Positions 2,150 to 50,670 of a stretch of 64,000 bases of DNA are shown here, piece by piece. The stretch is from Atriophallophorus winterbourni (Eukaryota; Platyhelminthes; Trematoda; Plagiorchiida; Microphallidae). How positions within the stretch are numbered: position 1 is the stretch's first letter; every line of letters begins with the position of its first letter. The notes beneath the pieces are model-generated. The model did not search any database and was not told the origin of the DNA. It saw only the letters and a program-made list of their open reading frames with translations. The stretch is from NCBI GenBank assembly GCA_013407085.1, contig JACCGJ010001423.1, positions 1 to 64,000 of the forward strand. Direction: 5' to 3'. Made by a program: the position numbers and the translations under genes.

Positions 2150-2690
2150 CAGGAATGAGAGTAAACGATGTTAGAATTTAAATTCACGCGTAAATAGAGT
2201 TCATACAACGAACCACGATTTTCAAACATGGAAACACGAAGTGATTCCTGGCAAGAAGTCAAGGCGAATATGGATGATTAAAGTGAGCTGTCACTCACAG
2301 CCGACGCACTGACACACTACTAACAGGTTTCTGATTATTTGCCGTCATCAGGTGGATACAGTAAGATTAGGTTCTGTAAGATTTGAATCTGTGGTATAAT
2401 TGGTAAACAAAGGTATACTTGTATACCACTGTCTAATAGGGTTCTTTTAAAGAATCACGATGTTCAAATACAGAATCACAATGTGATTCCTGGCCAAGCG
2501 TTCGAGGCGCTTATAAAAGACCAATATATTGGGGTGCTCACATCCCCATCCCTTACACACCACTACCGGTTTCTAGCTGTTTGCCGTCATCAGGTGGCGA
2601 CAGTAAGATCAGGTTCGGTGAGCCTTGAAACAGCGGTAAAGTGGTAAACTTGTACGCCAATGTTGTGAGATTTTCTAACAAGAATCCATC
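2150..2690 (-). repeat. A-family tandem array, three units (first partial)
   Basis: There are three head-to-tail A units. The first keeps only the second half (from GTTCATACAACGAACCACG onward). The second and third have the full core, with their GTAAGAT markers about 242 bp apart. The hammerhead-sense strand is minus. Each unit also carries short inverted repeats such as GTTCGTACAACGAAC and GAATCACAATGTGATTC. Confidence 0.8.
2560..2597 (-). ncRNA. Hammerhead-like motif in the third A unit
   Basis: Read on the minus strand: stem I 5' side CCAC, then CUGAUGA, stem-loop II (CGGC-AAACA-GCUA), GAAA, the palindromic stem III ACC/GGU, A at the cleavage position, then GUGG, which pairs fully with CCAC. 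Stem II keeps only two to three pairs and lacks the G-C closing pair. The layout is type I. Activity is uncertain. Confidence 0.45.
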
Positions 2691-2924
2691 AAGTGAAATT
2701 ATTCAGCTGGATTTGGTACCCATTAAATGAAAATCAGATTTTTCATTCACTGAGCAGATATAAACAGTATTGTTTGTCAAGAGTAAATGAACCCCGTTAA
2801 CTGTTAGATTAAGTTGAGCTTTGATTTCTATCTTGTTGCCGTAATAGACCGCTGAGCATCGAGCAGCGATGACATGAGTTAAACGGTCGAAGAATGCGTA
2901 TCTGGTCAGCGGTGTGGACAACCA

Positions 2925-3105
2925 ATGTCTTCAACTGAACAGGTTCGCGGTGTCAACCTTATCCAACAGTGGCTTACAATCACAAATCGTTTACCATTCC
3001 TCCATTGTTTCAAGCTCATACGGATGCTGATCGTACTGTCTCAACCCGACGAATGCAAACGGCACGAAACCGTTCTTGAGGTGTGTATGCTGAGAAGGCT
3101 TCCAA
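2925..3105 (+). repeat. B-family repeat, single unit
   Basis: A B unit in hammerhead-sense orientation: TCCAACAGTGGCTTACAATC, TCCATTGTTTCAAG, CGGATGCTGATCGTACTGTC. The core is CCGACGA (decayed CUGAUGA), stem-loop II AUGC-AAACG-GCAC, then GAAACCG. A 63-codon frame across it is a property of the repeat, not a gene. Confidence 0.75.
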
Positions 3106-4489
3106 ATGAATATTGAGATCTTCCACTCCTTTTGACGTATCCTACCAATCGCACAGCAACATTTACAGTATTTGCCTTTCTGACACTTATTGTTGAATTA
3201 TTGTGTCGACGTTCTCAGAACAGTAGGAAGCTTGCTGTTTGCTAACAAGATATGCGGCTTCTTGTATAACCACATATATTAATCGTCGATGCATGACTGT
3301 CGTATACGGCGAATTCTCATTGGTTCTTGGCTGTTATCCAATCAAATGTGTTGATTGATTGGATATGGTGATGAATAATTTACCGCTTCTCTATTAAAGA
3401 TATTTTATTCTGTACTTCCAATTGTATATGAATTATTCATAAGAAAACTGCTTCAGAAACAACGAATTAAACCTGAGTCATATCGCCTTGCTTCCGGTTT
3501 CTTGTACTTTTGTTCTTCCGTTTAGCGAAACAATTCACTTAAGTTGCTATTGTATAGTAATTGACACTCAGGTCAATACATAATCAATCTAAGCAGTGTT
3601 AAGTGTGCCAACATTTAATTCAATATGTCGTTCTTGATCAGTATCCAGTGAGATCGAAGATTTCAACCAAAATGCAATCGTCCTCAAAGGAAAAAGCCCG
3701 ATGAAATCTGATCTAGATTTCTAAACACGGAAGCACATCGATAACTATGCCACATGTAATCGCCGAAAGAAATGGTAAGTATCATATTATGGTTGCTTTC
3801 TTCACAAAACTTATGTGAACAAGATTATTTCAGATGCACACAACTAAAGAAGAGCGAACAGTGTGACGGCCTTAATAATCGATAAACACTTTTGAGAACG
3901 GCACGGAATACGTTTTGGTCAAGAGCACTCGATATGCTTGTGTGAACGCATGATTGATGCAGGTCTATGCATTTAGGTTTTACGTACAAAACGCTCACAG
4001 ATCTGAGTGCTTTACTTTGTTTTGCTCTGTTAAAAAAAAGAATTTCATGATTGATTAGCAGTTGCTCACCCCTGGCGCTTATGTAAATGTGGGTTTATTC
4101 GGGCAGACGGTATGTATGAATTTGGCTGATATTATTTGGCCCGTAGCTATAATCAATTCGAAGTTCTACATCTTGAGGACCAAGAGATGGAGAACAGTTA
4201 AACTGCTCCTTAGAATGACTACGAAATCATGGAAGACACTAATTCGATGTTGTGTATCTGCAGTGTACAGTGACTGTTGAGTTCAAACAACTCCAGCTAA
4301 CAAGCATGACATTATACACTGACGACTATCCTACATAAACTTATTATGATTTAACTGGGATTACAGCGGCTACGGCACGATGTATGGTACAATATTGAAG
4401 AAAAGTCATCATTTGATTGCCCACAATCAAAACCAAAATTGGATGAAGCGCTTTGCAATTGGAACACGGCCTAAAAATATAAAGCATTT
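3106..4489. other. No feature recognised
   Basis: I see no convincing exon, RNA gene or repeat. A 72-codon frame at 4062-4280 has no recognisable domain. Confidence 0.4.
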
Positions 4490-4575
4490 TTTGAAAGAAA
4501 CAATTTATTAGAACAATTTTGGGATAACATTTCGCTTCCGACCAAGGGCGATAGTCAAGTAGGGAACATAACTAT
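4490..4575 (+). repeat. D-family dispersed repeat, fragment
   Basis: TTTTGGGATAACATTTCGCTTC and CGACCAAGGGCGATAGTCAAG match the copies at 14490-14600 and 61045-61165, with an internal deletion. Confidence 0.5.
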
Positions 4576-4769
4576 GTGGCTCCCACCACCTGTGTTTTGA
4601 GTTGATTGCTAAGCAGCCTACAGTAAACCTCGCGTAAGCATGATCCGGATCTGTGGTCTGATACAAATGTACACACGCTCAAGACCAGTCGACACTGTGG
4701 ATCACATGTGCAAAAGTACACAGCCGATGAATTTAAGGTTGAACAATTTCTTTCAAACATAGAATTAAC

Positions 4770-4985: not shown

Positions 4986-6734
4986 ACAACGTGTATTAGC
5001 TACTTACGTTGGCATCAATGCTGAGCGCCAGATTGTAGTAATCTCTGTACAATCCAACAATCTACCTTGGCGAGTTCAACCACCTCTCTTTGTAGGCGTA
5101 CGCCATACGATTTACTACCAATAACAACCACGCGATCGGTTCTAAACATATTCGTAAAAATACACTTTTGTTGTCCAATTACGTATCACCTCGTCATTTC
5201 TGTAAGTTTGTCCAAATCAAATGGAATCGCGAGATAAGTTTCAACTAGGTAAGAACCAGCACCATAGTCATGTGAACGGTTTGGCACTAAATCCACTGTA
5301 GGCTGCAGTTGGTACAACAAACCATCGTATTTTATAGCTAATATTCAGCGAGCTACAATAGAGTTTCGTTTAAAAGAATTATCGATCTATTGAACGCGCA
5401 AGCCTGATTCTCGTTGAAGGTCACTGTCCAATCCACAAGGATATAATCATGTGCTCAAATAAAAAATATATGATAAGGTTTACTAAAGCTCAACTAATTT
5501 CCATTGTCATTGCGTTCAATAAGATTAGCTCAAAATCCGTTTGCTTAAAGTAAAATGTCAAGTGACAGACGCTTTGAAATATCCTTACGAATCTTACGAG
5601 ACAATGGATGTTTCCTCCAGATCCACATCAATAACTACCAACGCCCCACTTGCATACACGAAAATAGCAATTACAATGGTTTCAACCAACAACACACCAG
5701 TAATTTTCGGACATAATCAATATGCTTGCGATCACGCTAAAACGGAGGCTCTCTTACCAATGTATGCACACCTGGGTTCGTTCGACAATAGTCACACTGA
5801 ATCGTCTGTGGTTGTTTCTCCGCTCTCCACGCAATTGTTCGCCGAAGCATCTTCTCCGCAGCTGCAACGTCCCATTCTCGTGATTTGAGATAGCGAATCA
5901 ATCTGTAAGACAAATGAACATCAGTCCATTTTATCGATTTGCCACTATTTAAATTTCATTGGGCGATTAGCGTAAACCAATCAAATTGGCCCGCAAGCAT
6001 GGATGCTGTATAAGTTGCGGTGTTTTAGACGTAAAATGAGGATTCAGTGTCATGCTTGTGTTTCAACGTGAGTGAAAACGCTCAAACTCACACCTCACAC
6101 GGTGGTCAACATCATTCGATAACTGCTCTGTCTCGGGATAAGTTTCAATCACGGATTAGTTGATCCATCCCCCCTAATTAAGCGTATCATCTTCTATCTC
6201 TGAACAAACGTCTTTCCTGTTGGTCACGCGTTTACCGGTCGGGCATCCTGACCTTGACATTCACATGACATGCTGCCTAATTGGTGACACTTGTTTTTAC
6301 GAAAATACATGCAACATTTTGTGAACCTTTGTAGTTCGGCAGTTCCTTTGAACGGAGCTACAAAACAGCATCACAGGATTGAACCAAGATGGTGAAATAA
6401 TTTGTCTGGAAATTTCTATGTGAAAAATAAACGAGCTGGATACAATTTGGTCAAAGAACATCATTGTAGCACAAAACTACAATGGAATCGTCATATTCTG
6501 ATCGAACACTAACCATGCTCGATACACGCAGATAATGTTTGACAGAAAGCAAACCATAGCATCCGTATTTACGAAATGTCAAAACCACAAGTGTAGAATG
6601 TACGGGTACAAGGGTTGCACAATAGAACTCGACTGCAATCGTCACAAGATACACATCAGCACGTGATTGACAAGGGCGAAGTGTACAAACCCTTTCTGTC
6701 GTGGTGTGCATGTGTGATGGGAAGCACTTAACTA
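4986..6734. other. No established gene; one Ser/Thr-rich open frame
   Basis: A frame of 115 codons at 5541-5888 (+) ends in LFAEASSPQLQRPILVI-stop. It is rich in Ser and Thr, has no recognised domain, and no clear acceptor fixes its start. It could be a terminal exon or chance. Nothing else is seen. Confidence 0.3.
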
Positions 6735-7164: not shown

Positions 7165-7500
7165 TGTGGTATGGTGTAGTCCACATTGCTTACATTGGTG
7201 CTTCTCCATCATGTGAAGACACGAAGATCACGATTGTATGGTGTCTGTCTGATGATTACAAACTGCACGAAGTCGGTCGTGGTGTGTGTGTGATTAAACT
7301 TCATATAAATACGGATATTAGGTTCAAAACCTTGGGTTTAATCCCATCCAAATATGATCGAACTGGTAGGCCGTCTCAGTCTTCTCCAACCAATGACTTC
7401 AGACTTCAAACACACCATTTCTCCACCGTTTCGCGGCATATGGATCCCGATCATACTGTTCCTATCTGATGGAATAAGCTATCATGAAGGCGAAGTTTGT
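7165..7500 (+). repeat. B-family tandem pair
   Basis: There are two head-to-tail B units in hammerhead-sense orientation, with CTGATG boxes at 7249 and 7466 (217 bp apart). The second unit shows ATGGATCCCGATCATACTGT just before its box, matching the consensus GCGGATCCTGATCTTACTGT. Both are diverged. Confidence 0.65.
7240..7290 (+). ncRNA. Hammerhead-like motif in a B unit, cleavage-site side preserved
   Basis: CUGAUGA is followed by a weak stem II (UUAC-AAACU-GCAC), GAAG (consensus GAAA), then UCGGUC and GUGGUGUG. This copy is useful because it keeps the GGUC|GUGG segment, showing that the cleavage position in family B was GUC. It is inactive as it stands, because of the GAAA change. Confidence 0.4.
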
Positions 7501-12235: not shown

Positions 12236-12254
12236 TTTCTCTCTACCCCACCCT

Positions 12255-12850: not shown

Positions 12851-14003
12851 CAACTCAAACATTGATTTCACACTGATTTACAAATTATCCGATTGACACA
12901 ATGGAGGGTGCAACGCACAACACTTAGTTAATTATTTATTCATTCACTTCTGAGCACATGCTGTGAATAAGCGTATACTTGAGTAGTTGCAATCTGATCA
13001 AACCTGGACATCAATGTTGACGTTAATAAAGTCATCTTGAAGCGAATAAAATGTGAGCTGACATTGGTCTACAAGACCTAAAGGAAGACCAAGAGTTCAT
13101 TTGAAGTGATTGTAAGCCAAGCAAGATGGGCCGTTAACTGCTCACTTCCCAAGCGTGATAACAGTCATGCGAGCATGAAGTTGCCTCATCTTCGACACCC
13201 ATGTATTCCTGGATTCAGTAAGAACTCAGTATTGATCGTTTCCCTTCATGCCGCACAGCTGAATAACTTATAAATTTCGGCACCTGTTGTTCAGACGTAT
13301 TAAATAGGATTTTAGTCTTTTTAGAAAGTTCACATTCTAAATTTACGATTCCAAATTTCGCGGCATTACAAGTATAAATAAGAGTGCGATCTCATTTGGA
13401 CACTTTGTTCCACTGTCTGATGGATGGATCTTTAACACAACACTGTGTTTGGACTCCAAGTTCGCAATAGACTGAGCAACGATTTTGCATGAAAAACTAT
13501 TACATGGATGAAAAACAACGTCTAGCAATTAGCGCCCTGTGAGTTATGAAAACTGTGTCTGAATTTATCGGAGTTATAATCAATGAAGAAAGTCCTAATT
13601 CGTGACAAATTGGTTGCTCATTTCGCTCAAGGTGATTCAAATATAATCAAAGGTTTTTTTTCAATGTCTAATAGCATTTCACTGAAAAAGAACAATAGCA
13701 TCTTGTGAACGAGAATGTAACCAGAGGTATATTAGTTTACGCCATGATTAAAGTGTTCAGAAAATGCATGTTTTGAAAAGAAATCGTCTAAATTAATCCT
13801 AAATTCATTTGAGTTAATCGAGTGTATAATGGTTAATGATAAAGCGTACGAAATAACCAGAAGCGAACAAAATTCAGGTACAAATGTTATTGGTTTATTC
13901 TATTCCATCAGTCGCATCTTCCACACAGATATTCTGGTGCATCATTATCCTATGCTTATGAACGCCAAGGACGGTCCCAAGCCCGTCTGAGAAAGGAGGA
14001 GGG
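12851..14003. other. No feature recognised
   Basis: AT-rich sequence without exon signals that I would trust. Confidence 0.4.
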
Positions 14004-14325
14004 TTGGGCTTAGGGCTAGCAACCCTATCCCGTAAAACCTACATTGCTACGGAAACGAAGACAACAGATCCGTGGTTCGATCATGTCTGCAGGATGGATC
14101 CCAGTTCGCATACGAAGGTAGCCATTCACTGGCGTCCGCAAGGTAAACGAAAAAGGGACGGCCCAAGGAAACCCTGGCGCCAGAACGTTGAACGCAAACT
14201 ACATGCACAAGGATTCACGGTTGCAGACGGCAACGGAAGCAGCAACAGACCGGAACCACTGGCGTGAAGTTGTCTTGCCTCATGTGCCACCCGGCACGGA
14301 GAGGGACTGAGTGAGTGAGTGAGTT
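14004..14325 (+). pseudogene. RTE-like LINE (second type), C-terminal end with GAGT tail
   Basis: PWFDHVCRMDPSSHTKVAIH, WRPQGKRKRDGPRKPWRQNV, ERKLHAQGF: the post-RT region (GHVxRM...WxPxGKRKRGRPxxTWRR) of fluke RTE-type LINEs. After a frame change near 14245 the ending continues TDRNHWREVVLPHVPPGTER-D-stop. The 3' end is a short (GAGT)n tail at about 14306-14324, as expected for RTE insertions. Confidence 0.7.
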
Positions 14326-14612: not shown

Positions 14613-14850
14613 GAATGAATGGATGAATGAAATCACAAGCCTGATACAGGCAAAGTGCCGCACAGTCAAAGACTGCACGTAGGCGATATTACTGTCAGGT
14701 TGCCCAGGCCTAGTTAGATATGAGAAATAGAGAATAAAGAATAAAGATGGTAGTGAGACTCCAGCGTGTTTCAGTATGCAGCTCACTGCTGGTGGCCATT
14801 CAATTTAGCAAGGTGTTAGCCGCACAGCACAGAAGTACTTTACGATTATC
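14613..14850 (-). repeat. C-family repeat (RTE 3' end / SINE-like)
   Basis: Shows the C-family marks: AATCACAAGCCTGATACAGG, CAAAGTGCCGCACAGTCA, CAGGTTGCCCAGGCCTAG and the hairpin GGTAGTGAG...CTCACTGC. The simple-sequence tail lies at the left, so the sense strand is minus. Confidence 0.7.
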
Positions 14851-15119: not shown

Positions 15120-15210
15120 ACCGACACACCACAAACGGTTTCCGGTTGTTTGAATTCATCAGATGGAGGCAGGAATATTAAACATGAACCAACCATTGTG
15201 AGCGCCGCTT
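15120..15210 (-). repeat. A-family repeat, partial
   Basis: CACAAACGGTTTCCGGTTGT, then TTCATCAGATGGAGGCAGG. Minus-strand reading keeps CUGAUGA and GAAA but stem II is imperfect. Confidence 0.55.
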
Positions 15211-18200: not shown

Positions 18201-18584
18201 AAAACGGTTTTATCCTCTAACTTACCGATAGATGTAAGATATCCACAATAGATCAACTTTGAGCTTGACGGTTACGGTAATTTGTTGCGAGATGAGCGCA
18301 CGAAGTAATGTGCGCCAGTTGAGCCAATTAAAATTGAGTACACCTCGACCAATGTACTCATTGATAAAAACGACCTTGTCGAATGAGCCAATCAGAAAAT
18401 TGTTCTCGAGTTAGGGTCAAATGTTACTCAGAGTTGCGTCACGAGGACTACGAAACAACTGTGACGAAATTCTAGTTAAAAAATCAAAACATCTAAGACA
18501 TTTAAAATATTTTAAACACGGATTTTGGCGTAAACATTCTCTGGAAAACGTGACATAAGCACGACGTCAAACAATTGAAAATTC
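15211..18584. other. No established feature
   Basis: About 3.4 kb. A 94-codon frame (+) at 17118-17402 and its minus-strand counterpart have no recognised domain. I see no known repeat. Confidence 0.35.
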
Positions 18585-19150
18585 ATATTTGTATGCATTT
18601 CTGTTACACACACATCGTTTAGTTTGTATTCGTCGGGTATGGATAGTACGATCGGGATCCAAGTTACATAAAACAGTGGAGTAATGGTAAACAAGTTGAG
18701 CTTGTATGCCACTGCTGGATACGACCAACCTGCTCAATCACATGTGTCCAAAGACATGTTTAATGGGGTTAAACCCATAACCATGAAACAAATTATTTAT
18801 TTGCATGCTTTTCCGTCATTCACACCCCACGGCCAGTTTCATGCTGTTTTCACTCAACAGGTAGGGACAGTAAGATCAGGATCCGCATGCGCTTGAAACA
18901 GTGGAGGGTGTGTGACGAAAAAGCATGCAAATGAATATTTTGACCACATGATAGTTTAAAACCCATGGGTTAACCCAAAAACCTTATTTGCATGTCTTTT
19001 CATCAATCACACACACACACACGATCGATTATTCTGCTGTTTGTACTCATCAGGTATGGACATTACGATGGGGACTCGCATCTCATCGAACCGTTGGAGA
19101 AATGGTAAACAACGATTGAACGTTAATGTCAAAACGCTTCATTATAATGA
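18585..19150 (-). repeat. B-family tandem trimer upstream of the Penelope-like element
   Basis: Three head-to-tail B units; their GGACAGTAAGATC-type markers start at 18641, 18865 and 19058 (224 and 193 bp apart). Each begins near a TTTGCATGC-like block and CACACACA. The hammerhead-sense strand is minus. The third unit keeps CUGAUGA but has lost GAAAC; the first two have mutated boxes. The trimer ends about 50 bp before the PLE frame opens. Confidence 0.8.
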
Positions 19151-19196
19151 CACGACCAATCCTCTCAACCACATTGATCATACATACTTGTAAATA

Positions 19197-20605
19197 TTGA
19201 TTTTTGTTCAAAATCATGGATTTAAACGATCTACATGTTTGCGGGCTATGCGATTAAACAATTTGGCCGTGCATGCCTTAACCAACAGTGACTTACAAGT
19301 CCTAGTAGCAGATTCGGAACATTCGGTCAAATCTGCCGAACAATTTTTGCGGAAACTGAAGAACGTGAAGATCGAAGAGGACGAACTAATGGTTTCTTTC
19401 GACGTAACGGCACTATTCACGTCAATCGACAGAACACTCGCCAAGCAAACTATATCATCGTTACTCAATGAAAAAGGAACGGAACAGAATGGAAATCGAT
19501 TGACACACGAAAGTTTAATGGAACTGATCGAGCTGTGTCTTCGAACGCACTTCAAGTTTAACGGAAAGATATATGAACAAATCCGAGGAACGCCAATGGG
19601 ATCACCGATTTCTAGCTTAGTTGCGGAGGCAGTTATGCAACGTTTGGAACGAATTGCCCTGCCAATAATCCGACCAAAGCTATGGATCCGCTACGTTGAC
19701 GACACCTTCGTGATTATGAAAAGAACAGAACTGGATGAATCACATAGACTGCTCAACTGTGTATTTACTGGAATCCAATTTACAAAGGAAACTGAAGTCA
19801 ACGGCTGTTTACCATTTCTGGATGTTCAAGTGAAGCGGACAAGCGACGGAACGTTAGAGACCTGCGTCTACCGGAAAACCACACACACGGATCAAATACT
19901 GAACTTTCACAGCAAGCACCCGAACACTCACAAACGCAGTTGCGTCAGAACCCTATTCAAACGAGCAGCAACCCACTGCAGTACAGATGAACTGAGAAGA
20001 AAAGAAGAATATCTGTTCAAAGTGTTCCAGAAAAATGGATATCCGAGAAGCTTCATACTACGAAACAGGTCCAACCGCCCACAACAAAGAACCCCAGAAG
20101 AAAACAGAAGCAGACGCACTCTGCCTATATTCAACATATCTCCGAAATCGCAGCTCGGGTGCTTCGGCCACTTGGAATCGACATCGCGCATAAACCAGCA
20201 TCAACACTTCGCAACCACTTCAACAACACGAAAGATAAAGTGGCAAAAGAAGAACAGTCGAATATCGTCTACAAGATTTCATACAGAGACTGTGAAAAGA
20301 ACTACGTCGGACAAACGGGTCGCAAACTCAGCACAAGACTACATGAACACCAGTTGGCCGTACGCAGAAATGACCGGAATTCACTGATTTCAATACATGT
20401 TGATCAATTTGGGCATCAGTTCGACTGGGACCGCACAAGAATATTAGCCAGAGGAAACGACCGACGGACTCGGGAATTCTTGGAAGCGTGGCACTCAACA
20501 ACAAATTCAATTAACCAGCATCCCCAACTGGCTGCAACATATGGACCAATGAGAAACCGATCACGGAGACGGCATAACATGAACTCGACCAATCCGCGGG
20601 AGTGA
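19197..20605 (+). pseudogene. Penelope-like element: reverse transcriptase + GIY-YIG endonuclease, 5'-truncated
   Basis: The RT domain runs from LVADSEHSVKSAEQFLRKLK through motif A (MVSFDVTALFTSI), GTPMGSPISSLVAEAVMQRL, and the active-site motif WIRYVDDTFVIM, to LPFLDVQVKR. After a frameshift near 20095 the frame continues YIQHISEIAARVLRPLGIDI and then a GIY-YIG nuclease (NIVYKISYRDC, NYVGQTGRKLSTRLHEH), ending YGPMRN...stop at 20603-20605. RT plus C-terminal GIY-YIG is diagnostic of Penelope-like elements. The N-terminal RT motifs are missing, so this copy is not autonomous. The YVDD and GIY-YIG motifs are intact, so apart from the frameshift it looks comparatively young. Confidence 0.9.
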
Positions 20606-20671: not shown

Positions 20672-20716
20672 TTTTGCTGATGATGTCATCTAGCCTGATG
20701 ACGAAACGTCCAAGAA
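20672..20716 (+). ncRNA. Hammerhead-like ribozyme motif of the Penelope-like element
   Basis: About 70 bp after the PLE stop: UUUUG (stem I 5'), CUGAUGA, an extra U at 20684, a perfect 6-bp stem II (GUCAUC/GAUGAC, loop UAGCCU), GAAA, a minimal palindromic stem III (AC/GU), C at the cleavage position, then CAAGA pairing with UUUUG (one G-U). Type-I hammerheads with a minimal stem III are known from PLEs. The extra U between the core and stem II is unusual, and a decayed relative at 12509-12546 keeps the TGATGAT spelling. No activity can be claimed from sequence alone. Confidence 0.55.
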
Positions 20717-27484: not shown

Positions 27485-27700
27485 TGTATGAAAACACAAG
27501 CCTGATCCAGGCAAAGTGCCGCACAAAGACTACACGTGGGCTAAGATAATGTCAGGTTGCCTAGACAGATATGGGACAGGAAAATAGCAATGACTGTAAG
27601 ATTCCAGCGTGCATTCGCATGCAGCTCACTACCGGTCACAAATCAGTTAAGCACGGTTTTAGCTGTACATCACAGAAGTGCTCCACGGTTGCACATCCGT
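27485..27700 (-). repeat. C-family repeat
   Basis: ACACAAGCCTGATCCAGGC, AAAGTGCCGCAC, GTCAGGTTGCCTAGACAG, ATTCCAGCGTG and GCAGCTCACTACCGG. The tail is GTATGTATGTATGA on its left, so the sense strand is minus. Confidence 0.75.
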
Positions 27701-29400: not shown

Positions 29401-30060
29401 AGTAATCCTGGGATGTTGTTATGCGTTTGCTTTTTAACCCTGAATCTAAAGAGCTTGCGTCCAGTAGTGGGATGTAAATACACCCCAAGCAGCCGGACAT
29501 TTTAAAACATAATCATTATTCGAAACAGCGTTTCTTGGACATATACGTATGGAAGACCCATCTCAAAGCGTTCTTGCTGCGTCACCAAAATTGTTATCTA
29601 AAATTACACCGAATTGAACCTGTTTCATTGACGAAGAGCGTTAGTTATGACGGCATGCACTGTGGAACAATCAAAAGCAGACAGCAAACGCGAAAAAAGG
29701 AAAAGGAATGCATGTGGAGAAAATCGTTAAATGATGTATACCAATCGGAAAATGTTGGTTAGTGATAAAATAATCCAGCGAGTGGGTTCGGTAAATACTC
29801 AGACAACATCCGTCATTTAAGTGTGAACCAAAATACACCTGAATTAGTGAGTACAAAAGTAATGTTCCATTGAAAGTTCGGGTTGATAAACCCAGGCCGG
29901 CAATGAAAACCGCTCATAAACGCTTCAGAGGTTCAGACAAAAATAGTGTGAAAAACTATTCCGTTCAAATAAAATGGTGCCATTTAGGCTAACTAATAGT
30001 GAATAACAGGATACGAAAAAACAAAAAAAACAATTCAAGGTCATCAAAACCACCGCTTAC

Positions 30061-30780
30061 CGCATGTTTCGCTCTTTTTAGTTTGAAAGCAATTTGATCA
30101 CACAAGTCTTGTAATTTCCGTCCCGCAGGTGAGGGTCGGAATAAATTGGGGAACAAATGCGACGCGGGTTGCGAGAGAATGAACCCAAGCACGGGAGAAA
30201 ATTCCGGAGATCTCGAAGGCATGTTCGCATTCGTTCCCAAATCATCCCCAGATTCGGAGGAGAGATTTTCAAATGTGTTGGCCAAATCTTTCGGCTCGGC
30301 CAGTTTGGATATAAGACGACTGAACACAGCCTCTGCTTCCTCCAACTGATGTTGAGCATACACAAACTGTGCCGCATCTAGCAGGCTCTCAAAAGAGTGA
30401 CAAACGTCCTCTGTACAAGATGTCACTAGCTCCGCTTGTATGGTAGGAGGTGAGGTTGTGGAGGCGTTGTCTGAGGAATTTTCGTTGATATCCACATGTT
30501 GAATCGTGGAACTTGTCAAATGGCTGGCCGCCTGGTGAATTTTATCATCGCAAGCATCGTCATGTTCCAGTGTGGTCGGGAGTTGTTCTTGTTGACCAAC
30601 TAAAACGTTGAACAATGCCGAGTTGGTATAAGAGACAGAGGAGCTTGAAGATTCGAAACGAGACCTATTCACACAACGCGTCTTCATTAATGCGAAATCA
30701 GTTGCGCGTCCTGCAGAATTGTCAGTGACACTATTACAAGCTTGCTTTATAAAACCTATCCCCCAATCGGATAACAGCAT
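30061..30780 (-). CDS. Minus-strand gene, first visible exon (240 codons)
   Basis: 720 bp open in phase 0, from the acceptor CATTCCTGTGTTCCAG to the donor CATGCG|GTAAGC. It begins MLLSDWGIGFIKQACNSVTD; the ATG directly after the acceptor could also be a start codon, but an internal exon is equally possible. The middle is acidic and Ser-rich. A helical part (FESLLDAAQFVYAQHQLEEA, EAVFSRLISKLAEP) resembles a single TPR-like helix pair, and the end is helical and basic (LQDLCDQIAFKLKRAKHA). I recognise no family. A cytoskeletal or scaffold role is possible if the CAP-Gly reading of the fifth exon is right. Confidence 0.75.
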
Positions 30781-31014
30781 CTGGAACACAGGAATGTTAT
30801 TGGTTAAGACTCGACTAATTGACCGATAATTTGATCACACACGTAATGCGCACGTAAGCAGGTTCAGTGACGTGACCGTTAACTGACCGTTTGCTTGAGC
30901 CATAATTATGTTTAACCATAGAGGTTACTGTCTTTGTTTCAAGTGATTGACCCCTTCTAAGGTCATGAAAACTTTAACGAGACCCTGAGCATGAAGTGAT
31001 TTTATTCTGAACGG

Positions 31015-32130
31015 TTGGCCAGAAAAACGACAAATAACGCAGGGCTTCTTCCTTTCTATGATGTGCGGAACGAGCTAGCATTTATTGATGGATGTCTGAT
31101 GCGTGGATGCAAATTCGTTATACCGCAAGAACTTGTGTCGACGGTCATCTCCTGTGCACATGAAGGACATCTAGGAATCGTACGAACCAAGACTCGCATT
31201 CGACAATACCATTGGTGGCCAGCCTTCAATTCCGCTGTGGAAAATGCCATTCAGATGTGTACACCATGCCGCAACTCAGATAAGTCTGCGAAGCCAATCA
31301 AAGCTTCTATCCAACCGATCGTGTATCCTATGAGGCCATGGAGTAAAATTGCAGTAGACATCATGGGGCCATTTGCTCGGGCTCCAAGTTCGAAGAAAAA
31401 CATTCTGGTTGCAACATGCTTCTATACGAAATGGCCGGAAGCTTTACTATGTGATGATATCAACGCTTCGACTGTTATCAGATGGTTCCGTTATATTTTT
31501 GCCCGTTTCGGAATTTCCGAAGAAGTTGTCACTGATAACGGACCTCAATTCAGAAGTTTTGAATTGGCCAAATATCTGCAAGAAAACAATATAAGACATG
31601 TCCGTACAGTACCCTATAACCCTTCAGCAAACGGCCTAGCTGAGCGAATGAATAGAACCCTCAAGGAAAGTGTACAAGCCATTGTTGACGGAGGGGAAAG
31701 ATGGGAAGACGCAGTTATTACAGCATTGGAAAGCTATAGAAACACCCCGAATATGGCAACCGGGAAGCTTCCATCCGAAATGATGTTTGGGAGAATGATA
31801 CGTACAAAACTGAATGCCGCGGTTCCATTGAATCCTACTGCTTCCAGCGCGGAATACGACAGACGTACCAAATACCAAGAAACCTACAGAAAATCAGGTG
31901 ATACACTGCATCCTGGGCGTTATGTCAGACTCCACAATGCGCAAGTACCGAAAGGCGATTTCAAACTAACTCCACCTAGTCGTATAATAAGGGTGTTGAC
32001 TCCAGGTACATACGAGCTCGATAATGGAGTGAGAGCCAATGCCCGACGCCTCTACCGATGTCCGAATACAGTTCCTGTACCCCCTACAAGAATGCTGCGC
32101 AGCTCACGCTCAAAGGAGAGAGAGAGGTGA
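31015..32130 (+). pseudogene. Ty3/gypsy-type integrase fragment of an LTR retrotransposon
   Basis: 371 codons open. The zinc-binding HHCC domain has H49-E-G-H52 and C82-T-P-C85. The catalytic core has D115 (VDIMGPF), D174 (VTDNGPQF) and E210 (NGLAERMNRTLKE), with 35 residues between the second D and E, as in retroviral-type integrases. A chromo-less C-terminal tail follows. No gag, protease, RT or RNase H precedes it, and the frame opens without an ATG, so it is a 5'-truncated copy. The integrase frame itself is undamaged, which suggests a fairly recent insertion. I could not delimit LTRs. Confidence 0.85.
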
Positions 32131-37859: not shown

Positions 37860-38050
37860 GTGTCTCAAGGTCATGGTTTCATGCCATATAACTGAACAAG
37901 TTGCTCCTTTCATGCTTATCCCAACTGGCGCGAAAGTTTAAACATAATTTACCATTTTTGCATAGTTTCAAGTCAACGGATCTTGATCCTACTCTACCGA
38001 TCTGATGAGTGCAAACAGTTTAAAATCATTCATTTTGTTTGTGTACGACG
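37860..38050 (+). repeat. B-family repeat, decayed
   Basis: AACTGAACAAGTTGC and GATCTTGATCCTACTCTACC lead to CTGATGAGTGCAAACAG, an intact core and 5' half of stem-loop II, but GAAAC is lost. It faces the minus-oriented copy at 38215. Confidence 0.55.
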
Positions 38051-38214
38051 AAAAGCATGCAAAATGTGATGTTTTGTTCGAGCCCATGGCTCGTGTACGT
38101 GAGACTAAACATGTTATACATGCAAGTTTTATCCAGCTGCAGGTTCAATGTTTGTGCTTCGTTTATCATTTGTCCTGTTTCGTCTTTTTAACAAACGGAG
38201 TTCATTTGTCAATA

Positions 38215-38345
38215 TATTCATTTGCATGCATTTCCATCACACACACCCCATGACCGGTTTCGTGCTGCTTGCACTCAGCAGGTAGGGACAGTAAGATCAG
38301 GATCCGCATGTGTTCTTGTATGAAACAATGTGAAAAATTGCGTAT
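38215..38345 (-). repeat. B-family repeat, partial
   Basis: TTTGCATGCATTTCCATCAC, CACCCCATGACCGG and GACAGTAAGATCAGGATCCG. Truncated after TGTGTTCTTG. Confidence 0.7.
38246..38287 (-). ncRNA. Near-complete hammerhead motif in a B unit (one core change)
   Basis: Minus strand: stem I CCCUAC, core CUGCUGA (A6 replaced by C), perfect stem-loop II GUGC-AAGCA-GCAC, GAAA, stem III ACC/GGU, C at the cleavage position, then AUGGGG pairing with CCCUAC except at the first position. All stems and the GUC site are present; the core substitution should abolish cleavage. Confidence 0.5.
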
Positions 38346-39047
38346 GGCAAATTTTGCAATTTCGTGTACTCAACATTATCAACGGGCCGCGACTGTATTG
38401 TCAAATTTGTGAGCTTCGATCGCTATGAGAATGTTTATCATGTCAATCCTTATTTCACAACATAACCATCTGTACAAAGGGAATCGAAAATTTGCGTAGA
38501 AATAAGCTTGACAGCCCGTTACCTCGACCAGTGAGTCATACCTTCTCGCAGATATACTTTCGTGCTTCTAAAACTTGAAAGGCTGCTGATTAAAACATAG
38601 CCTTGGTATCCTTTATTTCATTTTCTACACGAAATGATGGGTCATGTGCAGAGAATAAAAATAGTCATATTCAAAAGATGTACTCTATAGTGAGTTGAAA
38701 ATAGTAAGTCGACCATTCGGTAGACCACACTTGCGGTAGACAGATGTTTGAAAAAGAGGGATGGATGCTCGTGACAATAACCTTACTAGTTGGAAAGAAG
38801 CTTAATTCACTGCTCGCTGTAGGACACTGTGCGGGGAGGAGGATGCTCTGGGCGTCGGATCATAGATCACACCGTCAGCGTACAATTGATTACAATCACC
38901 AGAAAACTGCCGATCGTTCTAAGCGCTGCGTTTGGGTATATGAAACGCTGTGTAGTGCGAAACCAACATGTGTTTGTGATGTATATTCTTGGCTGAGAGC
39001 GATCGAAGAAGGCCAAAGTACACTTGAACTGTGAAACATTATTATCA

Positions 39048-39250
39048 TTGTAATGTGTTGCTCACATTCCCCGAACTTACACACCACTAACGGTTTCTAG
39101 CTGTTTGCCGTCATCAGGTGGAGACAGTAAGATTAGGTTCAGTGAGCGTTGAAAAAGTTGATGAGTGGTATACAAAGTTATACTTGAATGCCACTGTTGC
39201 ATAGGGTTCGTACAACGAACCACGGTGATCAAAAACAGAATTACAGTGAT
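39048..39250 (-). repeat. A-family repeat, full unit
   Basis: Runs from AATGTGTTGCTCACATTCC to GAATTACAGTGATTCTTG. The hammerhead segment is 39084-39121: CCAC/GUGG stem I, CUGAUGA, GAAA and stem III AAC/GGU-like with one mismatch. Confidence 0.8.
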
Positions 39251-39460
39251 TCTTGCTCAAGACTAAGCTTAACGATGATGGCAAACAGCCAGAAACCGGT
39301 AGTCGTATGTAAATGCGGGATGTGAGCAACACATTACCTCAGTCATCCGCAAGCGCCTTGTGTGCTTGACCACGAATCACTTTGTGATTCTGTTTTTGAT
39401 TACCGTGATTCGTTCTACGAATCCTATGTAACAGTGGCATTCAAGTCAAACTTTTTTATT
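39250..39460 (+). repeat. A-family repeat, inverted relative to its neighbour
   Basis: GATGATGGCAAACAGCCAG, AAACCGGTAGTCGTATG, GATGTGAGCAACACATTAC, then the start of a next unit (TGACCACGAATCAC ... ACAGTGGCATTCAAG). It stands head to head with the minus-oriented unit at 39048-39250. Confidence 0.75.
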
Positions 39461-39589
39461 ATCATTGTACTTGCCAAATAGATTGACATCCATGTACGAA
39501 GTAAAAATAATTAATTCCAAATAGGTAATTCTAGTAGGACATTTAGTGCATGGTACGTTTATTTCAGTGCTCAAAATCGGTATTTCCAT

Positions 39590-39744
39590 ACATTTTAATC
39601 CCACACACCTCACGGACGGTTTCGTGCTGTTTGCACTCATCAGATAGGGACAGTAGGATCAGCATCCGCATGCCGTGAAACAGTAGGAAAATTGTAAACA
39701 AGTTGCGCTTGTTGGATAAGTTTGCTACGGCCAACCTGTTCAAT
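39590..39744 (-). repeat. B-family repeat, part right of which is displaced by a CR1 insertion
   Basis: CCACACACCTCACGG, then CATCCGCATGCCGTGAAACAG, AACAAGTTGCGCTTGTTGG, CCAACCTGTTCAATC. The rest of the unit resumes after the CR1 copy at 40586. Confidence 0.75.
39608..39650 (-). ncRNA. Hammerhead-like motif with an intact catalytic core (B unit)
   Basis: The minus strand keeps CUGAUGA, a perfect 4-bp stem II with loop (GUGC-AAACA-GCAC) and GAAAC: every core position is canonical. Downstream, CGUCCGUGAGG departs from the CGGUC|GUGGGG seen in sister copies, so stem III and the cleavage site are damaged. Confidence 0.55.
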
Positions 39745-40585
39745 CCGTACCCTTGGTTCTCATATTCTTGAAAGCACTGACAAGGAGAAGGACTTGGGTG
39801 TGTGGATGAGCAGCACTTTGAAACCGTCACATAACGTCACAGCTGTCTATGAAAAGACGTCACGAGTACTGCTACTGCTAAAACGCGTGTTCGGGAATTT
39901 CACTAAGCAAACCGTTTATCGAATAATTAATACGCACTTGAGGCCAACCATGGAGTATGCGGTTCAGGCTTGGTCACCCTGGCTACAGAAGGACATCAGC
40001 CTCTTGCAGAGAATATATCATCGGACCACCAAGCTCGTACGCGGTTTGAAGCACAAACAATACGAAGATCGTATTGCAAGTCTCAATCTATTCGACTTTC
40101 GCTACCGCCGTCTCAGAGGTGATTTGATACTTATGTTCAATATACTGCATACCCCCAACCATCCCCTAAATCAACTATTCACGCGACTACCACGCAGAAC
40201 CAGCCGGAGTCACGACTATACAGTACATATTCCTGACTCGAGACTAAACTGTCGAAGGTACTTTTATTCTGTACGTGTATGCTTTACCTGGAACTGCCTA
40301 CCTTGTAATGTTGCACATTCACCCAACTTGGATATATTCAAATCGAATTTGGACAATTTCATGTTGACCAATCCAAACTTTGAACCCATATATTTTACAC
40401 CATAAAAGCTTTGAACCTTGAAACCAGTTTCTGTCCAATGGATTTTTACTTCATTCCTGAACTGCTCAGTAAGCAAACAAATCCCGTTTTTCTACCCATG
40501 TTATTCGTAATTCCCATATTATTCTGTGGATTTTTGTTAAGCTATATGCTTTTTAGACCATTAAAATTGAATTGAATTGAATTGG
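39745..40585 (+). pseudogene. CR1-like LINE, best copy of the RT C-terminal region and 3' end
   Basis: About 220 codons are open: LESTDKEKDLGVWMSSTLKP, INTHLRPTMEYAVQAWSPWL, RIYHRTTKLVRGLKHKQYED, NLFDFRYRRLRGDLILMFNI, SRLNCRRYFYSVRVCFTWNC, ending at a TAA at 40403-40405. This is the RT thumb and C-terminal tail of a CR1-clade LINE (SR1-like in flukes); the polymerase core is missing. The 3' UTR ends TTAGACCATTAAAA followed by ATTGA repeats. It is inserted in a B-family repeat, so it is younger than that repeat. Confidence 0.85.
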
Positions 40586-40770
40586 AGATGAGGTTAAACC
40601 CGGGTTCATAAACAAAATTCGGTATTTGTATGCATTTTCATCACAGAAACCGCATGACGTTAGATTCAACACCACCTACATGTGTATCAGCACATTTGAT
40701 GGAAAATGTTGGTCGTGCCAACCTCATACAACCTGGGTTTACAATCGCAACTTGTTTATCATTTCAATGA
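40586..40770 (-). repeat. Continuation of the interrupted B-family repeat
   Basis: GAGGTTAAACCCGGGTTCAT and TTTGTATGCATTTTCATCAC continue the B unit broken at 39744. A decayed piece follows, including GTTGGTCGTGCCAACCTC. Confidence 0.65.
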
Positions 40771-42379: not shown

Positions 42380-42625
42380 GACACTTGTATGAAATCACAA
42401 GCCTGATCCAGGCAAAGTGCCGCACAGTCAGAGACTGCACGCAGGCTAACAGATACTGTCACGTTGCCCAGGCCTAGACAGATATGAGGAAGAAAAAAGA
42501 ATACGAAATGGTAGTGAGATTCCAGCGTGTTTCAGCATGCAGCTCACTACCTCTGGCCAATTAATTTAGCATGGTGTTAGGTGCACAGCACAAAGTACTG
42601 CACAATTGTACATCCATGCGGTCTG
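42380..42625 (-). repeat. C-family repeat, near full length
   Basis: AATCACAAGCCTGATCCAGG, CAAAGTGCCGCACAGTCAG, GTTGCCCAGGCCTAGACAG, the 9-bp hairpin GGTAGTGAG...CTCACTACC, then GGTGCACAGCACAAAGTAC. The sense strand is minus. Confidence 0.8.
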
Positions 42626-43794: not shown

Positions 43795-44170
43795 ACATCA
43801 CATCACAACCTGTTATGGTTGTAGAGACAGGTATAGACAATAAGGTTAGATTCAGTGAGCCTTGTAGCCGTGGTAAAGTAGTAAACAAAGCTGAACTTTG
43901 AAGCCACTGTTACATACAATCAATTTAAAATAGCAAATTGACTCCGGGTCAAGTGCTCAACCTTGTAATTGACTAAGCCACTGTGATGCTCACATCCCCA
44001 CCATTTAAACTTTACTGCTTGTTTCTGGCTGTTTGCTTTCATCAGGTAAAGACAGTAAGACGAGTGAGTCTTGGAACAGCGGTGAAGTAGTAAACAAATT
44101 TACATTTTGAAGGCATTGTTTAATAACGTTTATAAAACGAATCATATTGTTGAAATACTGATTATCATCG
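43795..44170 (-). repeat. A-family tandem pair
   Basis: Two A units, with GACA(A/G)TAAG markers at 43836 and 44051 (215 bp). Both hammerhead segments are decayed; the second keeps TTCATCAGG. Confidence 0.7.
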
Positions 44171-44927: not shown

Positions 44928-45705
44928 TGCAATGGTGTGCATCGTTGCAGTACTTGTGCTGGTTGCTAACCGTGCTAAATGATTGCGCCAGGGGTAGTGA
45001 GCTGCTGCTGAAACAGGTGGAGTCTCACTATGTACTTACTTCACTTTGTGCGACTATCTCTCTCGGAAGGAGGCGTCGGATCAAAGAAGCTTCTTTGGGC
45101 ATTTTGGGTTTACAAAGCGCGTCCTCCCAGCAACAAGAGGGTTTGTTCGAGGTCAGGCTCTTAGCTTAGCAAACCAAGTGCGACTGCAAGGCGTAGGGAG
45201 TTTGCCAGAAGAGGTGGTATTACAAGGACGCTTGTTCCGGTGCCTCAGGGTTTTTCTCCCGAAGCCTTCAGCGATCGGGTGATCCACAAGGCAGCGGAAT
45301 GTTATAATAAGGGTTTTCCTTCCTTTAGATGGACAGATTGCCCCTCCAAGGCGAACGAGCTCAATTGCCCGTAAGCAACTGGTTTCAGTCGCCTAGTCCG
45401 CTCGCCCTTCGCCCCTTCTCCCTGTTGTACGGTAGAAGCAGTTCCGCCGGGCTCGGAGAGCCATCGTGCAGGCCAGAAAGATGGACTTGGTGTCAGAGGC
45501 TATTTGAGACGAAATGCCATATGGGAGCATTTTACACATGTGGGAAGGTATCCCCACTTGCACCCCGGCTATGACAAACTTGGAGTCTCAATCCCATTCC
45601 TGTACTTTTTCGTCTCATATTGCGTCCTGGGCAACCTGACAGTATCTTCGCTCACGTACAGTCTCTGACTGTGCGGCACTTTGCCTGGATCAGGCTTGTG
45701 CTCTC
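44928..45705 (+). repeat. C-family repeat split by a 553-bp insertion
   Basis: The left part (GTTGCAGTACTTGTGCTG ... GGGGTAGTGAGCTGCTGCTG) stops at 45027. The right part resumes at 45581 (TGGAGTCTCAATCCCATTCC ... GGCACTTTGCCTGGATCAGG). The sense strand is plus, with the tail after GGCTTGTGC. Confidence 0.7.
45028..45580. mobile_element. Unclassified GC-rich insertion flanked by a 10-bp direct repeat
   Basis: TGGAGTCTCA is found at 45018-45027 and again at 45581-45590, on either side of 553 bp that do not belong to the host repeat. The insert is clearly richer in GC than its surroundings, has no poly-A or simple-repeat tail and has no recognised coding region. A TATAATAA stretch sits near 45303. 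Termini resembling TGT...ACA would allow a solo LTR, but the flanking repeat would then not match at the LTR edge. The class is unknown. Confidence 0.55.
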
Positions 45706-46814
45706 ATACCATACCTAACAGCTGCGGAGAACGAAAACATCATACGCGTGTGATTTACATCCATGTTCCACATCGACCGAAGCAGGCAAACAAGAGTATA
45801 TACTCCGTAGAGTTCCTTTCCTGTTGCTCAATCGTTCGGCACAATCAGTTTCTCTGCCGTTTACTATTCGCATGAGTAGAAGAAAAGATTATCGAGCTCC
45901 CCGCTAATAGCCGAAATATAAGCACATAAAATTTTGCGGTTGTTTTGGTAATTTCAATTTTCCATTAGTATCTTGTCATTCCTTTTGATATTTCGTTTGA
46001 ACTATTGAAAAAATGGTTCAGTGAATAAAATCTAATGACTTGTTGAAAGTCGACATGATTTTTTTCTTTTTTTGACGAATTGATATTTCGATTATTCTGA
46101 GCACACGCATTGTAGCACTACAATGATATTTAGTTATCACTAACTACTCAGTTCCGACAATCCGTACACACTGTGCTCGATTTTGTGGTGTGTGATGGAG
46201 ATGCGTGCGAATGAGCAACATAGTTTTTATTCAATTCTCGTGTTTTAAAACCTTCGGCAATTTCATCTATCTCACTCTTTCACGAGACCGTTTGGAACTG
46301 ATCTTTTTTGTCCATGCAGGTTCACTCTAATACTAGTTATAGATTATTTAGCTACATCATTTTTACACAGCACCCAAACATTGAGCGAACATTGAAACAG
46401 TGGAAAATCTGTAGTTTGGGGACGCTGTCAAATATGATTGGTACGAGCATTCACGATTCCAGAGCATGCTCCAACTAACCTTTCTTTTTTACCTCCTGAA
46501 GTCAAACTCACCGGAATTAGATACAGATGGCACATACGTTAAATATGAGCATTCCATCAACTGATGCTTTTCTTATATTTTGCTTTTATCACTGTTATTC
46601 TGACTTAATGCTTAGTTGTTGCTTCCCATCTCTCCGTAAGACAGAAACGTGACAATCAAACGCACCATTTATCTTTTTCATTGACATGCCTCTTTGACTC
46701 AATGCGATTGGGCTTTATAAACATTCTTCTATACTTCTTCATGATTTATTCCATGCATTTCCCAATGAAGACTTTTCATCACCCAATCGAACCATACGAA
46801 CGGATATGCAATCG

Positions 46815-46985
46815 TGCAGCATTTCTTTACGGCGCAGCCAACACCGTGCTAAATTGATTTGCCATGCAATTGCTATTTTCCTATCCCATATGTGTCTAGG
46901 CCTGGGCGATCTGACAATATCTTAGCAGTCTTTGACTGTGTAGCACTTTGCCTGAATCAGGCGTGTGACTTCATATCATATCATA
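46815..46985 (+). repeat. C-family repeat, internally shortened
   Basis: CGCAGCCAACACCGTGCTAA, CCTATCCCATATGTGTCTAG, GCCTGGGCGATCTGACA, CACTTTGCCTGAATCAGGCG, tail TTCATATCATATCATA. The hairpin part is deleted. Confidence 0.7.
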
Positions 46986-49069: not shown

Positions 49070-49390
49070 ATTTGCATGCATTTCTATCCGACCCACATAC
49101 CCCACGGCCGGTTTCATTCTCTTTGCACTCATCAGGTAGGGACAGTAGGATCAGAATCCGCATGCGCTTGAAACAGTGGAAGAATGGTAAACAAGTTGCG
49201 CTTGTATGCCACTGTTGGATAATGTTGGTACGACCAACCTGTTCAGTCACATGTGTCCAAACACATGTATAATGGAGTTAAACCCATAACAATGAAACAA
49301 AATGCTCATTAGCACGCGTTTCCATCACACGAACAATTTCGTCCTTTTGCCTCATCAGATAGACAAATTTCCACATTTTGTGAAATTTAA
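49070..49390 (-). repeat. B-family tandem pair (second unit truncated)
   Basis: The first unit is complete, from TTTGCATGCATTTCTATCC through GGGACAGTAGGATCAGAATC to CACATGTGTCCAAACACATG. The second begins CACGCGTTTCCATCACACG and breaks after CTCATCAGATAGAC. Confidence 0.8.
49100..49141 (-). ncRNA. Hammerhead-like motif with a full 6-bp stem I (B unit)
   Basis: Minus strand: CCCUAC immediately before CUGAUGA, stem-loop II GUGC-AAAGA-GAAU (partly lost pairing), GAAA, CCGGCC, then GUGGGG. CCCUAC and GUGGGG pair over all six positions (one G-U). The U of the cleavage triplet is C here, so this copy should not cleave. Confidence 0.5.
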
Positions 49391-50424
49391 TGATTATCAA
49401 ATGTCGAGAAAACGTCGTCAGATAGGTGTTGGTCTGATGTTTGATATGCTGCGAGTAGACCTACTTGTAACTTATTTACTTAAATTAAAGAAACCATAAA
49501 AAATACGAACGACTGCTATAAAAAGTCTGAGAATATTTGACGCATCATAAAGGTCTGTTCCTCAGTCACTTTTGATTATATTCCCACGGATAGCAATCTA
49601 TTTATCTGCCCGAGTTATACATGCATAAATGAAATATACTTTCCGAAATCCTAAATAATTAAAACCTCTTCCATTCATTAGTATTTTATGCTCTTAACTT
49701 GCTCCCGCACTTTATTATCTAAACCCGAATCGAATAAAAAATTTTCTAGCCTAATTGTAATAGATTCCTCACATTTTCCACACAAATATTCCGTTAACGG
49801 TTTTGACGTATTGCAACCATCAGATCCAAATATTAGTACTACCAGTATAAAAGTAAAACTTGTAGATAAAATGTATACTTTGAGGTCACCCATTAATGAG
49901 TTTCGCTGAATCACATAGTGATTCTCCGTCAACCGTTCGATTCATTTAGGGCATACCATTTTATTGTGTTGCTCCATTTTTCCCACATCAAATTTCTTTC
50001 GTGACATATCCCTGACGAAATGTCGATAATTGAAAATTCTTGGGTGTCACGCAGGACGCACAATTGTCAATAGTACACGCGGTCCATACCACATCTAGAT
50101 CACTTTCGTCTTGTCGTGCTGCAACTAATCAGCGATTCGCAAACATTGAGTCACCGAACGTGTCCATCATAATTGCATGGGTTGGACTCGCTGTAATCTA
50201 GTTTAATTCGCTTGGTCTGTGTTCTTGCTCCGCTGGTTCATCAATCACAATACGGTACAGTCACATACAACAAATCGTGGTCTGAATAAGGACGAGACGG
50301 TTGCATGTGTTATGATTAATATCGTTTCGGTCGTTGTGGACAACGTATCGATCAGGTTGAATAAATCGATGGTGCATTTTGTGTTGTTTCTGGCAAGAAT
50401 GATAAATTGTGGACCATGTTCAAA

Positions 50425-50670
50425 GTTATGTGTTGCTTACATCCCCCCAATTGCACTCCACTACCGGTTTCTGGCTGTTTGCGTCATCAGGTGGAGACAG
50501 TAAGATTAGGTTCGGTGAGACTTGAAACAGTGGATAAATGGTAAACAAGGTTATACTTGAATGCCACTGTTGCATGGGGTTCGTACAACGAACCACGATG
50601 TTCAAACACAGAATCACATAGTGATTCATGGTCAAGTACTCAAGGCGCTTATGAATGAGTGATGTTTTGC
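50425..50670 (-). repeat. A-family repeat, best full-length unit
   Basis: TATGTGTTGCTTACATCCCC, CACTCCACTACCGG, GAGACAGTAAGATTAGGTTC, GTATAAC-like CTTGAATGCC, GTTCGTACAACGAACCACG, AATCACATAGTGATTC, GCGCTTATGAATGAG. It ends in TGTTTTGCTCACAT, which repeats its own start, as expected for a unit cut out of a tandem array. Confidence 0.85.
50458..50494 (-). ncRNA. Hammerhead-like motif in the full A unit
   Basis: Minus strand: CCAC, CUGAUGA, short stem II (GC-AAACA-GC core), GAAA, ACC/GGU, A, GUGG. Stem I pairs over four positions. Stem II is one base shorter than in other A copies. Confidence 0.45.

Follow-up and report, generated by a model that had tools for sequence, protein, structure and literature searches.

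Insertion anatomy of short hammerhead-encoding repeats in Atriophallophorus winterbourni suggests mobilisation by Penelope-like elements

Comparison with described hammerhead elements

Metazoan retrozymes, which carry no long terminal repeats (LTRs), are described as tandemly repeated units, about 170-400 nt long, that contain a type I hammerhead ribozyme and have a GC content below 50%; they come with target duplications of more than 4 bp and share their genome with Penelope-like elements, or PLEs (Cervera & de la Pena 2020, PMC7229834). Long interspersed nuclear elements (LINEs) or PLEs are proposed there as their movers; PLEs, a strong candidate in that account, are favoured because they coexist with retrozymes and have hammerheads in common with them. 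How retrozymes re-enter DNA is left open in what PMC7229834 and PMC11722881 say of it. Here we analyse a stretch of 64,000 nt from the trematode Atriophallophorus winterbourni (assembly GCA_013407085.1, contig JACCGJ010001423.1, positions 1 to 64,000), hereafter the window, which holds two related families of short repeats, A and B; two further families, C and D, were recognised in a wider sample of the genome. Families A and B are probably non-autonomous animal retrozymes with minimal type I hammerheads, mobilised by the reverse transcriptase (RT) of a PLE. Like the described retrozymes, A to D form tandem units (234-306 bp) with a type I hammerhead motif, a GC content of 0.41-0.47 and, in a minority of insertions, target-site duplications (TSDs) of at least 8 nt, and a PLE is present in their genome too. 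They differ in having a loopless ACCGGU in place of stem III, and in being known here from DNA, with RNA circles that we infer.

Rotifer PLEs are reported to have head-to-head inverted pseudo-LTRs and TSDs of 8-10 bp (PMC3846280). According to PMC11167929, the purified protein of a lizard PLE cuts and extends both target strands, and reverse transcription begins internally, downstream of the hammerhead, at two sites that define a 'tail'. The families described here share with PLEs head-to-head copies, TSDs, a probable start downstream of the hammerhead and perhaps two recurrent 3' ends, and differ from them in the spacing of the start sites, which is weighed below. The minimal hammerheads of PLEs are reportedly type I, with helix III missing or minimal, and are said to be expected to cut as dimers. 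Families A to D resemble them in type, in the minimal stem III, in the expected dimers and in their thousands of copies, but their units of 234-306 nt would leave no room for an RT, and the hammerhead of the resident PLE itself has ACGU where A to D have ACCGGU. Schistosome Sm-alpha and W elements are likewise flatworm repeats with type I hammerheads (PMC8490949, PMC6155905). The likeness of A to D to these two elements was drawn by description. Sm-alpha carries a canonical stem III loop.

Families A to D and their hammerhead motifs

The genome was scanned over 537,331,230 bases, and copies were studied in a main sample of 289,303 bases (65 stretches including the window), mostly picked through an intact ribozyme core. 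Eight loci (L002, L004, L005-L008, L049 and L052) were left out as overlaps or duplicates, and the first set still contains one near-duplicate pair (L046/L047). Additional samples were 20 fresh 1-kb loci, held out (20 kb), and about 4 kb of PLE pairs. Sampling the genome and aligning copies gave unit types of 241 bp for A, 234 bp for B, 306 bp for C and 257 bp for D, each consensus being derived from few copies (30, 38, 10 and 3, respectively). Across the whole unit A and B are 72% alike. Families A and B have essentially only about 36 bp in common with C and D, namely the ribozyme, and C and D are similar to each other chiefly over 55 bp covering it.

The strict core pattern CTGATGA-N(6-20)-GAAACCGGT was found 14,505 times genome-wide, against 3 times for the reversed pattern. 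A full descriptor, which combines the core and GAAA with both stems and the NUH site, matched 27 times in 249,147 sampled bases and not once in five first-order Markov sequences; this is an enriched figure because most loci were fetched for carrying the core, and the genome-wide count is the unbiased one. Comparing the window with the consensus units gave 21 family pieces, 9 of A and 12 of B (22 with a looser cut-off), mostly between 2161 and 50669 and covering 19 ribozyme regions. A sequence-only reading of the window had counted about 17 such sites, and a script recovered the motif CTGATGA...GAAAC there, mainly on the minus strand. Judged by their sequence, the A and B copies of the window are decayed elements encoding type I hammerhead motifs.

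Covariation was assessed in an alignment of 18 rows, 15 of them distinct, representing five families (A to D and one copy of a further family, F). Two-sided changes occur at 9 of 12 base pairs, with a score of 0.523 against 0.152 after shuffling; the rows were preselected for pairing, which biases the percentage of paired cells, and only two-sided changes between families count. With no pairing filter, stem I has on average 4.98 of 6 pairs in 93 exact-core copies against 4.51 with shuffled partners, a small difference because the stems of A and B cross-pair. Core counts, descriptor and covariation thus agree with the sequence-only reading in seeing two related families that encode type I hammerhead motifs.

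For the exact-core copies, the family was set by the flanking sequence in counting stem I, the 10.1/11.1 pair at the base of stem II, and H17. Among the 40 copies of B, the commonest stem I is CCCTAC/GTGGGG (11/40), 32 have G-C at 10.1/11.1 and 38 have C as H17, so that the ancestor deduced from the window alone (CCCUAC/GUGGGG, GUGC/GCAC, ACC/GGU and GUC) is the commonest form in sampled B copies. The 10.1/11.1 pair is also G-C in all exact-core copies of C (8/8) and D (2/2), and B, C and D mostly retain a GUC or GUU site. The 45 copies of A show C.A at 10.1/11.1 in 35 cases and U-A in 6, and their cleavage triplet is GUA in 40.

The ancestor had also been called a complete hammerhead, which holds for stems I and II and for GUC; a stem III closed within one molecule is absent, the ACCGGU palindrome of A to D having no loop. 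Stem III would therefore close only between molecules, and the dimer is the expected active form. When two copies are cofolded, a double hammerhead with paired palindromes has the lowest energy for B, for D and for the A variant GTGGAG; another fold is slightly better for C (-33.3 vs -30.7) and for the A variant GTGGTG (-23.7 vs -22.5). These models favour dimers; self-cleavage of A to D is predicted. Folded as circles, the C and D consensus units are unusually stable (z -8.7 and -6.1), which would support a rod-like RNA, and B only slightly so (z -2.0).

Other hammerhead-like sequences were encountered. Family F, whose stem III region is the palindrome ACTCGAGT, occurs at L027:6174-6218(-), where stem II is GCTC/GAGC, and at L023:3066-3110(-). 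A further family, CTGACGA...GAAACGT with a long stem II, lies at 61101-61130(-) of the window and in L013, L014, L018, L021 and L023, and probably derives from a different PLE. A weak twister-P1 match at 13956-14007(+) (26 bits, E 0.29), with the stretch CGGTCCCAAGCCCG, was set aside together with mir-322, mir-15 and other Rfam matches as weak or as inverted-repeat artefacts.

Insertion anatomy and the candidate mover

Ends of the copies were counted from the start of CTGATGA. Site 1 is the interval at 60-79 nt, about 42 nt past the predicted cut, and site 2 lies at about +187 in A and +178-186 in B, about 150-157 nt past the cut. The 3' ends of single insertions fall in site 1 in 56 of 89 cases (A 25/44, B 31/45), where about 8% would be expected if they were uniform, and the 5' ends are scattered, with 4/42 (A) and 0/45 (B) inside the same interval. 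Choosing loci by an intact core forces 5' ends upstream and 3' ends beyond about +29; it does not explain the site 1 peak. The median distance from predicted cut to 3' end, taken over ends within the chosen interval only, is 42 nt for A (n=24) and 40 nt for B (n=34). The 64,000-nt window by itself has single-insertion 3' ends at site 1 in 2/7 cases for A and 6/8 for B. Ends at site 2 are commoner at the outward ends of head-to-head insertions (A 6/18, B 6/20) than in single ones (A 8/44, B 1/45). In the held-out loci, too, single insertions have their 3' end at site 1 (A 11/15, B 3/5), or in 10/14 and 2/2 when L311 and L316, near-duplicates of the earlier L039 and L017, are omitted; none of the 20 lies at site 2.

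Grouping gave 126 insertions, of which 23 are head-to-head (A 10, B 10, C 3), none is tail-to-tail and one is a three-piece compound; three of the 23 pairs depend on an arm with E > 1e-3, and a strict cut-off leaves 21 abutting pairs, one of them same-strand and the other 20 head-to-head. The held-out loci added three head-to-head pairs, each with one end at site 2, and no tail-to-tail pair. Target duplications of about 8-15 bp are present in a minority of copies. TSD-like repeats of at least 8 nt border the outer ends of 7/21 complete head-to-head insertions (4/420 for mismatched flanks) and 21/96 single insertions (75/9,120 for mismatched flanks). Moreover, 41 of 157 arms exceed one unit, and the template was therefore circular or multimeric. 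In D, the 3' ends of three arms lie 45, 168 and 168 nt past the cut. The D stretches L024:4091-4768 and 6176-6240 agree with the D unit to 96-100%, and two of them stop at the same point, +198; the unit was made from three copies, two of them in L024, and the matches and the common end point may indicate recent activity. In L019:3913-4899 a head-to-head B insertion directly adjoins a head-to-head C insertion.

The window contains a PLE at 19194..20605(+), with an RT at 19194-20387 (RVT_1 E 1.5e-7) and, in a second frame at 19991-20605(+), a C-terminal part that resembles GIY-YIG, with no Pfam match of its own. A PLE-type minimal hammerhead lies in its 3' region at 20677..20712(+) (CTGATGA, stem II GTCATC/GATGAC, GAAAC-GTC). 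The relatives of the PLE (best 120 of 2,024 matches) are mostly flatworm proteins, with some from sharks; those from flatworms include Spirometra/Sparganum, Clonorchis, Dicrocoelium, Schistosoma, Trichobilharzia and Paragonimus. The pattern formed by the PLE hammerhead and the sequence following it occurs at 1,056 places in the genome, the control at none. Among the first 100 of these places, neighbours within 1 kb are head-to-head in 12 of 13 cases, same-strand in one and tail-to-tail in none. In each of the nine out of these 12 head-to-head PLE pairs that were read, one arm ends about 42-49 nt and the other about 70-87 nt past the predicted cut (L337, L338 and L341 were judged by eye, and L338 and L339 are duplicates with a common flank). 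A TSD-like repeat of 9-16 bp borders six of the nine, a count made without a control; an 11-mer search around the PLE of the window gave no TSD.

At 18986-20605, a B piece on the plus strand (19184..19299) adjoins the RT coding sequence, with a minus-strand B piece at its left; this is possibly a retrozyme/PLE chimera, produced by template switching between the two RNAs.

The anatomy of the retrozyme insertions matches that of the PLE copies in this genome, and for this reason we regard the PLE enzyme as their likely mover. The cycle would start with transcription of genomic tandem or read-through copies. Two hammerheads would pair through ACCGGU, as in the in silico folds, and would cut after GUC in B or GUA in A; the unit RNAs may then be ligated into circles, or multimers may persist. 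The PLE RT would bind this RNA, cut an AT-rich target and begin the cDNA internally at site 1. Site 2 would be the place where the other target strand is sometimes primed, the two cDNAs being joined head-to-head. A bolder proposal, to which we give somewhat less than an even chance, is that retrozymes parasitise PLEs, their circular or multimeric RNA being copied from both cut strands at two fixed sites with the hammerhead as ruler or docking site. Part of this proposal, and put forward just as tentatively, is that retrozyme and PLE both have their first start fixed about 42 nt beyond the cut.

Three other accounts were considered. The repeats could be retroposons resembling short interspersed nuclear elements (SINEs) and moved by a LINE, whose RT would start at the 3' end of the element and produce inversions by twin priming, the hammerhead being a passenger. 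Any target-primed retroposon could show TSDs and 5' ends that scatter while the 3' end is fixed, and two frames of the window (39698-40405 and 54656-55147) resemble a LINE RT, with no Pfam match for either. However, twin priming uses variable internal sites, whereas the putative second priming site is recurrent here as well (about +187 in A, +178-186 in B). Inspection by eye found no poly-A or simple-repeat tail at the listed junctions and no recurrent LINE-like sequence upstream of 22 sampled terminal matches that lack a recognised hammerhead. No candidate LINE partner with the same termini was found within the 289,303 sampled bases, and the resident PLE shows the same distance from predicted cut to 3' end, so that we hold a LINE mover to be quite improbable. 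Spread as plain satellite DNA, by unequal exchange or extrachromosomal circles and not through RNA, would account for the tandem units. It is scarcely credible given that the arrays in the sample are short, the longest being 927 bp, that single copies are dispersed, that TSD-like repeats and head-to-head insertions occur, and that 3' ends recur while 5' ends are scattered.

Alternatively, the hammerhead fold could be kept as a recognition structure for the RT and not for cutting, the RNA being an uncut tandem read-through. This would fit the mismatch at the base of stem II retained by A, and also the lizard PLE, for which PMC11167929 describes hammerhead-dead RNA that inserts like the wild type and a ribozyme that needs protein to cut. 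Against it, the letters of the catalytic core are among the best conserved, and exact-core copies of B, C and D mostly retain GUC or GUU together with G-C at 10.1/11.1; we regard it as unlikely, though worth keeping in mind.

Several results also weigh against our preferred account of retrozymes moved by a PLE enzyme. A head-to-head share of about 18% is typical of LINE twin priming too. The spacing between sites 1 and 2 is about 117 nt in A against about 40 nt in the PLE, and beyond the hammerhead no sequence common to retrozyme and PLE RNA was identified as a binding site. The site intervals were defined after the first data had been inspected and were fixed beforehand for the held-out set only. 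In the first set, where both ends of a head-to-head pair are known, sites 1 and 2 hold one end each in only 5/8 (A) and 5/10 (B) cases; in the held-out pairs the other ends (52, 54 and 40) fall short of the site 1 interval. The 3' ends of C are scattered, lying 55 to 87 and 130 to 220 nt beyond the cut. Copies of A are just as numerous in the sample as those of B and may cut weakly, because they retain the C.A mismatch at 10.1/11.1; the circular-fold stability of the A consensus is ordinary (z -0.84). In the copies of the window, the excess of core conservation is modest, the core scoring 0.929 in A and 0.869 in B where the remainder scores 0.795 in both; certain 10-nt stretches elsewhere in B equal the core, and the stems are lower (0.769 and 0.719); this test is weak, as matches of A and B are mixed and not exclusive to a family.

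Finally, the sequence-only reading had named the lack of any above-threshold hammerhead match as grounds for rejecting its claim, and no Rfam gathering-level match was found in the window or in 24 distinct loci (gathering mode for 15, E-value mode for 16), which formally counts against it. In E-value mode C reaches 45.2 bits (E 2.4e-8) and D 42.5 bits (E 1.7e-7) with Hammerhead_HH9 (RF02275), whose cut-off is 52 bits; C matches the full model and shares its outer stem I and its internal loop, but has no stem III loop. Intact B copies reach 32.9 bits (E 2.5e-4) with the type I model, whose cut-off is 34, and the best hammerhead match inside the window, at 39609-39649(-), has 25.4 bits (E 0.075; cut-off 34). 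We read these scores as an effect of model length, because the best E-values are 2.4e-8 (HH9) and 2.5e-4 (type I) and score is lost at the shortened stem III.

The insertion scars described here are a footprint in common with the resident PLE, bearing on a step that the literature has left open. The footprint can be checked in any genome with retrozymes, the prediction being a start about 42 nt past the cut and a second strand begun at a second fixed site. A search of open-licence papers found no prior description of it. Minimal hammerheads without helix III are dispersed by the thousands in animal genomes according to PMC7761336, and the mechanism proposed here offers an account of them.

Copies and other elements of the window

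Family A forms a head-to-head insertion from 39046..39261(-), with its 3' end at site 1, and 39274..39457(+), with its 3' end at site 2; the whole insertion (39046-39457) is bounded by the 11-bp repeat TTATTATCATT. Two head-to-head insertions belong to B. One consists of an array at 18569..18905(-), with its 3' end at site 1, and a short arm at 18901..18942(+), also ending at site 1; it is followed by the B copy 18986..19112(-), again ending at site 1. The other is decayed and made up of 40588..40658(-) and 40678..40763(+), the latter ending near site 2.

Family A is further represented by an array of about two units at 2161..2649(-), with ribozyme motifs at 2327-2351 and 2558-2599, an array at 43828..44161(-) with a ribozyme at 44017-44045, and a copy at 50421..50669(-) that ends at site 1 and has its ribozyme at 50463-50490. 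The motif at 2558-2599(-) is the sole one of the window to pass the full descriptor, and the pair at the base of its stem II is a mismatched C.A. Fragments of A lie at 198..270(-), ending at site 1 with the TSD-like repeat GACGAATTT, at 455..511(-) and 15124..15178(-), both with a ribozyme region, and at 49908..49974(-).

The remaining copies of B include those from which the ancestral hammerhead had been deduced. The copy at 39582..39745(-) (25.4 bits with the type I model) has the perfect core reported for it, as well as an intact stem II, at 39615-39643, and an altered cleavage site. In 38210..38310(-), the ribozyme at 38253-38281 has a single core change (CTGCTGA) and retains GUC, as stated; the stems were called perfect, and this part fails, the first stem I pair being a broken C.A. 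The array at 49070..49362(-) has ribozymes at 49107-49135, where the full stem I noted earlier was recovered (6/6 pairs), yet stem II is broken and GGCC replaces GGTC, and at 49332-49358. Likewise, 7249..7471(+) keeps GGTC|GTGG, yet GAAA is replaced by GAAG and stem I is weak. A copy at 2936..3114(+) has a degenerate ribozyme, and one more copy lies at 37948..38078(+).

Some features outside these families are also present. A separate dispersed repeat family, CACAAGCCTGATCCAGGCAAAGTGCCGCACAG..., is found on both strands at 14624-14831, 27485-27706, 42386-42592, 45626-45709, 46876-46974 and 53509-53639. A homology search with 29989-30834(-) returned no match, and scans of viral and prokaryotic contigs gave one match per contig among the matches listed. 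An integrase reading frame at 31000-32130(+), with Integrase_H2C2 and rve domains, is of the LTR retroelement type, and an exon-like reading frame at 819-1352(+), with Kunitz and spondin-type TSP1 domains, probably belongs to a host gene.

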